In this document: positions 55,493 to 57,614 of the stretch, piece by piece
Numbering within the stretch: position 1 is the first letter of the stretch
Layout: each line of letters starts with the position of its first letter
Assembly (NCBI RefSeq): GCF_022836435.1
Contig: NZ_BQXC01000001.1
Location: 942,121-1,006,120, forward strand
Direction: 5' to 3'
Origin: Nitrosomonas sp. PY1
Lineage (GTDB): Bacteria > Pseudomonadota > Gammaproteobacteria > Burkholderiales > Nitrosomonadaceae
Length of the DNA stretch: 64,000 bases
Program-made: the position numbers and the translations under genes
The notes under the pieces: generated by a model
What the model saw: only the letters and a program-made list of their open reading frames with translations
The model's database searches: none
Told to the model about the DNA's origin: nothing

Positions 55493-55724
55493 TTATGATT
55501 TTTTTGAATATGCATTACACCAACCATGAGGACTAATACTGCCATCTACTACTACGCATTCGCCATCGGCTTCAGGTGTTTTGCCAGGTATGAATTGCCG
55601 GCAATTACTACATTGCTCATCCCCTTTGGGCTTGTCAACATAACCCATTAATTCTTTAGATGGTTTTCCTGTCTGCGCTTGAGCAACTAAGCTGGTTGTA
55701 AAAGGAATTGTAGCACTTAAAGCT

Positions 55725-55732
55725 ATAAATTT
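55725..55732. repeat. target-site duplication, left copy
   Basis: ATAAATTT, identical to the right copy next to the other IS end. Confidence 0.92.
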
Positions 55733-55744
55733 GGGGCTGTAGTA

Positions 55745-55769
55745 GATTAGCTTAGATGTTAAGCTAATC
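55745..55769. promoter_or_regulatory. hairpin in the IS left end before the transposase start
   Basis: GATTAGCTTA and TAAGCTAATC form a perfect 10-bp stem with a 5-nt loop ending three bases before the transposase ATG. Placed like this, it could block translation of transposase from outside transcripts, a known IS strategy; the role here is inferred. Confidence 0.55.
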
Positions 55770-55771
55770 AA

Positions 55772-56425
55772 ATGAAGATAAGTCATTGTAGATTATTAAG
55801 GAAAATACAGTTAAGGTTACTGGAATTTTTTGTGCTGGAAGTTACAGCAAGATCAGCAGCCAATATACTCGGAATACAACCCAATAGCGCCGCGTTGTTT
55901 TATCGTAAAATACGTGAAGTTATTGCTTATCATCTGGAGCGGGAATCTCACGAAATCTTTGATGGTATAGTGGAGTTGGATGAGAGCTATTTCGGTGGCG
56001 TTCGTAAAGGTAAACGTGGCCGTGGAGCTGCTGGTAAGGTGGCTGTGTTCGGCATATTGAAGCGTGGTGGTAAGGTATACACAAAAGTTGTAGGCGACAC
56101 TAAATCAGAAACACTTATGCCGCTGATAACCAGAAAAATAGCACCTGACAGCGTAGTTTATACAGATTGTTATCGCAGTTACAATGCGCTTGATGTGAGC
56201 CACTTCTACCATGAACGGATTAATCATTCCACGTTATTTGCGCAAGGCAAGAATCACATTAATGGGATTGAGAATTTTTGGAATCAGGCCAAACGTGTTT
56301 TAAGAAAATACAATGGAATTCCCAAAGAGTCATTTCCATCTTTTCTTAAAGAATGTGAATTTAGATTCAACTATGGAACACCTAAACATCAACTAAAAAT
56401 ATTGAAAAATTGGACTCAAATTTAA
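55772..56425 (+). CDS. IS1595-family transposase
   Basis: A 217-residue DDE transposase of the ISXO2-like/IS1016 type. An N-terminal helical region precedes the catalytic core: first Asp in VELDESYFGG, second Asp in VYTDCYRSY, and the third acidic/Asn region in HINGIENFWNQAKRVLRKYN. The basic GVRKGKRGRGAAGK loop is typical. Complete and uninterrupted. Confidence 0.94.
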   Translation: MKISHCRLLRKIQLRLLEFFVLEVTARSAANILGIQPNSAALFYRKIREVIAYHLERESHEIFDGIVELDESYFGGVRKGKRGRGAAGKVAVFGILKRGGKVYTKVVGDTKSETLMPLITRKIAPDSVVYTDCYRSYNALDVSHFYHERINHSTLFAQGKNHINGIENFWNQAKRVLRKYNGIPKESFPSFLKECEFRFNYGTPKHQLKILKNWTQI

Positions 56426-56444
56426 GCTGATCTACTACAGCCCC

Positions 56445-56452
56445 ATAAATTT
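56445..56452. repeat. target-site duplication, right copy
   Basis: ATAAATTT, identical to the left copy; both lie exactly outside the terminal repeats. Confidence 0.92.
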
Positions 56453-56494
56453 TATTACCTTACGCCTTGAGAATTTTTTTTCACAGTAACTCAT

Positions 56495-56913
56495 AACTTT
56501 CCTCCTTGGTTAGATAAACAACAAATGAAGCACTAGAGAAAATGCGATGATTTTTTCGTCACATAAAAATAGTGCTATTGAAGTTCTTTGGCCACACCAT
56601 CCATAATCAACCACAACCTAACAAGTATTTAGAATAATGCGTAAAATCTACCTTGGTGTCGCATCATAAACACGATTTGAGAACTTTACAAGATTGCATA
56701 AGCTTCTTGCTTCAATATAATTCCGGATTTTATTTGTGTTGTGAGCGACCAATAACTCTTTGGCCTTACACATGAACTCAGGATAATTACCCTAAATTCT
56801 TAAGAATCCGCAAAAAAAATCAGATTTGTCACGTCGTCTTGTCTGTGCTGATTTCTAAGTTCGCTAAGCAATCAAATTATTGCATAATCATAATTCAATA
56901 CAATTAGGTTTCA
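56495..56913. other. gap between the HiPIP and Crp/Fnr pseudogenes
   Basis: About 420 bp of AT-rich DNA that must hold the old HiPIP promoter (minus) and the regulator promoter (plus). I see no gene, terminator or clear Crp/Fnr site. Confidence 0.35.
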
Positions 56914-57614
56914 ATGGAATTGAAAATGCAATCTATAGCTTACGATGCTAAATCTACGTTGGTTAACGAATTTTTTGGACGCGATACGAATCAATTACAG
57001 AAGGATTACTCTTCTATCCTGGAAATCAATGTTCCGAAAAAAAACTATCTTTACCGTCCAGGGAATCGTTGTTCTTATTTGTTTTGGATAAAAACGGTAT
57101 CGTCAAGCTTTCTCATTTAACCGAGCGGGGGAGTAAAATTACGGTTGATCTGCTCAGGAGAGGGGATGTCATTGGTTGTTTTTTGAATGATCCTGCCGGT
57201 CAGGAAATAGATGAGACTGCGCAAGCATTGGATGAGGTTGATTACTATCGGATAGCTTATGGCGATTTTAAAGCAGTGATGTTTCATCAAGCAGAATTGG
57301 CTTAGTATGTTATTCAAGATATGTATGCTCGGAAGCGAAGAGGAGAACGCAAGTTAAGAACTATTTTGACTCAGCCGGTTGAGACGCGCGTTATAACTAC
57401 ATTGTTGGAATTAGCTGAGATGTTTGGAATAAGGTGTACTCATGGGTATACCTTGGAAATTCATTTAACTCAACAAGAAGTGGCAGATCTGGTGGGGGCA
57501 AGCCGCTCTGTTGTAAGTACGATTTTGAACGATTTTCGAAATCGCGGAATGTATACGCGCGATCAAATTTGTATTAATGATGCTGCTCTTATCGATTCGT
57601 GCAGATTCCAATAA
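56914..57614 (+). pseudogene. Crp/Fnr-family transcription regulator, frameshifted and stopped
   Basis: A cyclic-nucleotide-binding-like domain (YRPGNRCSYLF...LDKNGIVKLSHLTERGSK, LLRRGDVIG) and a C-terminal helix-turn-helix (LTQQEVADLVGASRSVVSTI) are spread over three pieces. A one-base loss near 57080-57090 shifts the frame, and TAG at 57303-57305 interrupts the dimerisation helix (AELA-stop-YVIQDMY), probably from CAG. The pieces together match a full-length regulator of about 233 residues. Cysteines expected for an Fnr iron-sulfur cluster are absent. Two separate lesions make a sequencing error less likely. Confidence 0.85.

Follow-up and report, generated by a model that had tools for sequence, protein, structure and literature searches.

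On the minus strand of the window, the 64,000-nucleotide stretch of DNA that we analysed, a small gene is split in two by a 712-bp insertion sequence, and an exact copy of the 8-bp sequence ATAAATTT stands on each side of the element (Table 1). The tips of the element, GGGGCTGTAGTAGAT and ATCTACTACAGCCCC, match at 15 of 15 bases and then at 6 of 7. The upstream piece of the gene reaches the element after 50 gene bases (16 full codons and 2 bases), 42 of which precede the duplication. When this piece is read on without being joined, it gives 19 residues, followed by two stops within the element. The source genome comprises 2.85 Mb in 4 contigs, and the contig with this locus is 2.71 Mb long.

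Table 1. Features of the split gene and of the element that interrupts it, in window positions.
Feature	Position	Strand	Basis
5' piece of HiPIP gene: start codon, n-region, twin-arginine motif MSYCEKKFSRRKVI	56453..56494	-	residues 1-19 identical in the nearest relative (L035)
Target-site duplication, copy 2, ATAAATTT	56445..56452	.	read from the window
Insertion sequence, 712 bp, IS1595 family, IS1016-like, terminal inverted repeats	55733..56444	+	sequence and copy comparison
Transposase, 217 aa, uninterrupted frame (654 bases including stop)	55772..56425	+	PF12762, NF033547, signature spacing
Target-site duplication, copy 1, ATAAATTT, doubling as gene codons	55725..55732	.	read from the window
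3' piece of HiPIP gene: hydrophobic part of signal, whole four-cysteine HiPIP domain, stop codon	55493..55732	-	PF01355
Mechanical 97-aa frame, starting within the element and continuing into the HiPIP piece	55493..55786	-	no ribosome site just 5' of its ATG
Region upstream of HiPIP gene, with ribosome site	56495..56620	-	alignable with the uninterrupted gene's upstream DNA in the relative, with one 8-base and one 1-base gap

The first-pass annotation had proposed that the two pieces and the duplication join in frame to a 93-residue HiPIP, and that excision of 55733-56452 in silico should restore one frame. The scripted excision indeed gave a single open frame on the minus strand, from 56494 to 55493, which encodes 93 residues and scores above the PF01355 cut-off. 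As the annotation had also stated, the rebuilt gene has a strong ribosome site of its own (AGGAGG immediately 5' of the ATG), the break lies directly after the twin-arginine motif, as seen in both the joined frame and the 19-residue upstream reading, and the remainder of the gene is undamaged, both halves being free of stops and frameshifts (282 bases in all). The chance of two random 8-mers matching at such base composition is about 3e-5, a rough estimate in which the frame is not counted. Coincidence does not account for an exact 8-bp repeat abutting inverted-repeat tips within a frame whose residues line up one by one with those of relatives.

In Pfam, the joined protein matched PF01355 with 28.0 bits (cut-off 22) over model positions 24-65 of 66, and the 3' piece by itself scored 27.9 bits against the same cut-off in the genome search. 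The one other Pfam family found on the joined protein, a zinc finger, stayed below its cut-off (23.8 vs 27). A PDB search returned three chains, two named HiPIP and one named PioC, the best being 1isu (E 5.3e-10). The cluster-binding cysteines C55, C58, C73 and C86, spaced C-x2-C-x14-C-x12-C, are invariant in a seven-row alignment and recur in every row of a larger, 20-row one. The protein resembles known HiPIPs (PF01355; PDB 1isu, 3h31, PioC 6xyv) in its four-cysteine spacing, small size and export signal. It differs in that its gene is interrupted, and only relatives show the intact form. Judged by these family and structure matches, the split gene is a predicted HiPIP gene, in agreement with its first annotation.

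Before the hydrophobic stretch, the joined frame carries SRRKVIK, which agrees with the twin-arginine consensus, and the protein is a predicted Tat substrate. The source genome encodes TatC (232.7 bits, cut-off 132.7). In PMC11198818, HiPIP precursors are described as model Tat substrates.

The only NCBIfam match of the joined protein was the Iro "iron oxidase" model NF041615 with 57 bits, and membership in that family was dropped because the curated cut-off is 100. The model was likewise matched by 7 of the 7 proteins of our alignment A1 (E <= 0.001). Although its score is under the cut-off, the protein aligns over its full length, signal included, with Iro of Acidithiobacillus ferrooxidans (residues 1-93 to 1-89 of 90). 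Whether iro encodes the first Fe(II) acceptor or a part of sulfur oxidation is presented as debated in PMC2621215.

The insertion sequence and its copies

The transposase matched PF12762 (DDE_Tnp_IS1595) of Pfam with 105.2 bits (cut-off 27) and the IS1595 family transposase model NF033547 of NCBIfam with 162.2 bits (cut-off 75), and the family named in the first annotation therefore stands. In its signature, DESYFG(53)VYTD----Y(24)HINGIENFW-QAK, the spacings 53 and 24 were both found. The length (712 bp, against about 700 bp in the IS1016 subgroup), the inverted tips (15 bp perfect) and the direct repeats (8 bp, against 7-9 bp) also agree with this subgroup. In length, transposase and spacing alike, the element matches the IS1016 subgroup within the IS1595 family.

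A 2025 paper (PMC12561309) describes ISApl4 of the IS1016 subgroup as 712 bp long, with inverted repeats of 14 bp, A/T-rich direct repeats of 8 bp and a transposase gene of 654 bp, and gives the subgroup signature as DESYFG(53)VYTD----Y(24)HINGIENFWSQAK. Compared by these published sizes and this signature, our element is like ISApl4 in total length, in the 654-bp transposase gene, in its perfect inverted tips (15 bp here, 14 bp there), in the A/T-rich 8-bp duplication and in the signature. It differs from the published description in its host genus and in the last signature spacing, which by our count is 15 here and 14 there.

Seven near-full-length copies of the element and several fragments are present in the source genome. 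One other copy shows 0 differences over 712 bases from that in the HiPIP gene, and the remaining five differ at 1, 3, 4, 6 and 6 alignment columns. Of the 7 copies, 3 are flanked by exact 8-bp duplications, whose sequence at the HiPIP site differs from that at the two other duplication-bearing sites. No simple 8-bp duplication flanks the other four, and some copies are therefore older or have been disturbed. A megablast search for near matches to the element in plasmid records returned none. The near-identical copies and the duplications at three sites indicate that the element is active or recently active. The insertion into the HiPIP gene is probably recent, because neither half of the gene has acquired a stop or frameshift and because a second, identical copy exists; the latter is in line with the recent event that had been annotated.

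Elsewhere in the same genome (C1:2632309-2634538, loci L003 and L004), two copies point in opposite directions. An 8-bp target at the outer flank of one recurs in inverted form at the inner flank of its partner, as after an inversion between copies, and the other pair of flanks shows no match.

Intact relatives in Nitrosomonas

Two loci in genome contigs encode relatives across residues 1-93, with 78% and 66% identity. The nearest, L035 from an uncultured Nitrosomonas MAG, has an uninterrupted gene with 78% protein identity over this range. Its residues 1-19 are identical to ours, the DNA alignment shows no gap at the insertion point, and similarity at the DNA level is recognisable to about 120 bases upstream of the gene. 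The identical N-terminus and the gap-free DNA across the site show that the N-terminal piece belongs to the gene. The annotation had named, as grounds for rejecting its reading, element-free relatives with no HiPIP frame through the site, or N-terminal 17 codons that are not part of it; the relatives have both the frame and the same N-terminus, so the reading stands. Its assignment of the N-terminal codons to the gene was right, and only their number, given as 17, has to be corrected to the size stated above.

Twin arginines and four cysteines are present in 19 of 19 aligned relatives. The 20-row alignment excludes a decayed copy in genome G043 (L053) and the match L015 from outside the genus, and the matches in G003 and G043:C97 are likewise not among its rows. 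In a survey of 85 genomes of the genus, our own included, the joined protein matched 20 and PF01355 matched 21, the union being 21 of 85. HiPIP is thus an accessory protein in Nitrosomonas. For instance, the two genomes whose 3' glgB sequence is closest to ours (89% and 87% identity) gave no HiPIP match, whereas G088 has two copies. In our genome, a genome-wide search found PF01355 at this locus only.

One of the two HiPIP matches in G043 is decayed (L033/L053, G043:C182), with a stop present and the cysteine pattern absent. It shares its neighbourhood with the intact copies of L018 and L039. This decay is an apparently independent, separate loss of HiPIP.

Consequence for the electron carrier

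We consider it highly probable (about 0.92) that an IS1016-like IS1595 element transposed into the single-gene HiPIP locus of this Nitrosomonas species, that 8 bases were duplicated and that HiPIP export was lost, probably recently. The upstream piece, which has kept the ribosome site, the start codon and the twin-arginine motif, would now yield a 19-residue stub only, whereas the downstream piece, in which all four cluster-binding cysteines lie, would be deprived of a start and an export motif. No exported HiPIP would then come from the sole copy in the genome. Since the element parts the four cysteines on its 3' side from everything needed to start and export the protein on its 5' side, and since no second PF01355 locus is present, we infer that the exported HiPIP has been lost.

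In kind, this is an ordinary event, an element inserted in an accessory gene, and a cleanly documented gene disruption. With the only HiPIP of the genome interrupted, probably not long ago, the locus marks a loss in progress, and the strain is likely to serve as a natural knock-out in which the role of HiPIP in ammonia oxidisers can be studied. Judged by titles and abstract openings, none of the papers found in the open literature deals with HiPIP in Nitrosomonas, and PMC2621215 names the genus in its reference list only; this says little about subscription papers.

As a counterpoint to a knock-out, a fused open reading frame spans the end of the element in frame. The 3' piece could still be made from a start within the element, giving a HiPIP that lacks the twin-arginine motif and is cytoplasmic or misrouted. 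The 97-aa frame, which enters the HiPIP piece in frame from 55786 and retains the hydrophobic stretch and an AQA site, would allow this, and the minus strand also has a promoter-like pair of hexamers at 55814-55785. However, the bases 5' of the ATG of this frame show no ribosome site, and the second hexamer of the pair overlaps the ATG, so that a transcript would begin beyond it. Moreover, promoter-like matches occur at chance level (6, vs 4.8 +/- 2.3 in shuffles), and an outward promoter in the element is not supported by this count. We therefore regard such residual synthesis as improbable. Still less credit is due to the more elaborate possibilities that the element end restarts HiPIP without twin arginines and so gives it a new compartment or route, or that the insertion can be undone, with HiPIP-on and HiPIP-off states alternating in the population. 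An assembly error, in which misjoined repeats misplaced the element, is conceivable with seven near-identical copies in the genome. Yet the 8-bp duplication is exact here and has another sequence at the two other duplicated sites, and the assembly has only 4 contigs, the one with this locus measuring 2.71 Mb. This is the least plausible explanation of all.

Compatible with transposition into the HiPIP gene and loss of export is the idea that the gene was drifting before it was hit, the insertion completing an ongoing loss of an accessory gene; we hold this to be rather unlikely, but it deserves more weight than the alternatives above. In 6 of 6 outgroup comparisons our lineage had 11-14 amino-acid changes, against 3-5 in that of the nearest relative. 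Chi-square values over the six outgroups ranged from 2.25 to 7.12 (2.25 in three, then 3.27, 5.4 and 7.12), but only 2 of the 6 tests, which are not independent, exceeded 3.84, and L035 was taken as sister from identity, not from a tree. Three changes on our lineage (Gly to Ser, Ala/Ser to Thr and Lys/Arg to Val) fall at positions fixed or nearly fixed in 19 others. The patchy presence of HiPIP (21 of 85 genomes), the decayed relative in G043 and the broken Crp-like gene that adjoins the locus would also fit a gene on its way out. On the other hand, comparison with L035 gives a pairwise dN/dS of 0.11, although synonymous sites are nearly saturated. Our lineage has also retained the twin arginines, the four cysteines and 22 of the 23 columns invariant in the 19 others, and no stop or frameshift occurs across the 282 bases of the gene. 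The excess of changes on our lineage is modest, and constraint on the gene may already have been weaker when the element arrived.

Genomic neighbourhood

No conserved neighbour that hints at function was found when 11 neighbouring ORFs of the window were compared with 22 loci, some of them short and two pairs from the same contig; one remote RND match (24%) was the only hit. Likewise, no cluster of neighbouring ORFs of at least 80 residues was common to more than 3 of 20 loci (L018, L035-L053). The surroundings of HiPIP are mostly unrelated from one species to the next, a pattern that resembles a gene acquired and lost on its own.

Beside the HiPIP locus, a gene for a Crp-like regulator (window 56914-57614) is broken by one or more frameshifts and by a premature stop. 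The gene is a single open frame in all 11 relatives' loci that were read. A second, close Crp-like copy in our genome (C1:2132495-2133186) is also frame-shifted, and Crp-like matches, with paralogues pooled, are present in 58 of the 85 genus genomes at E <= 1e-30.
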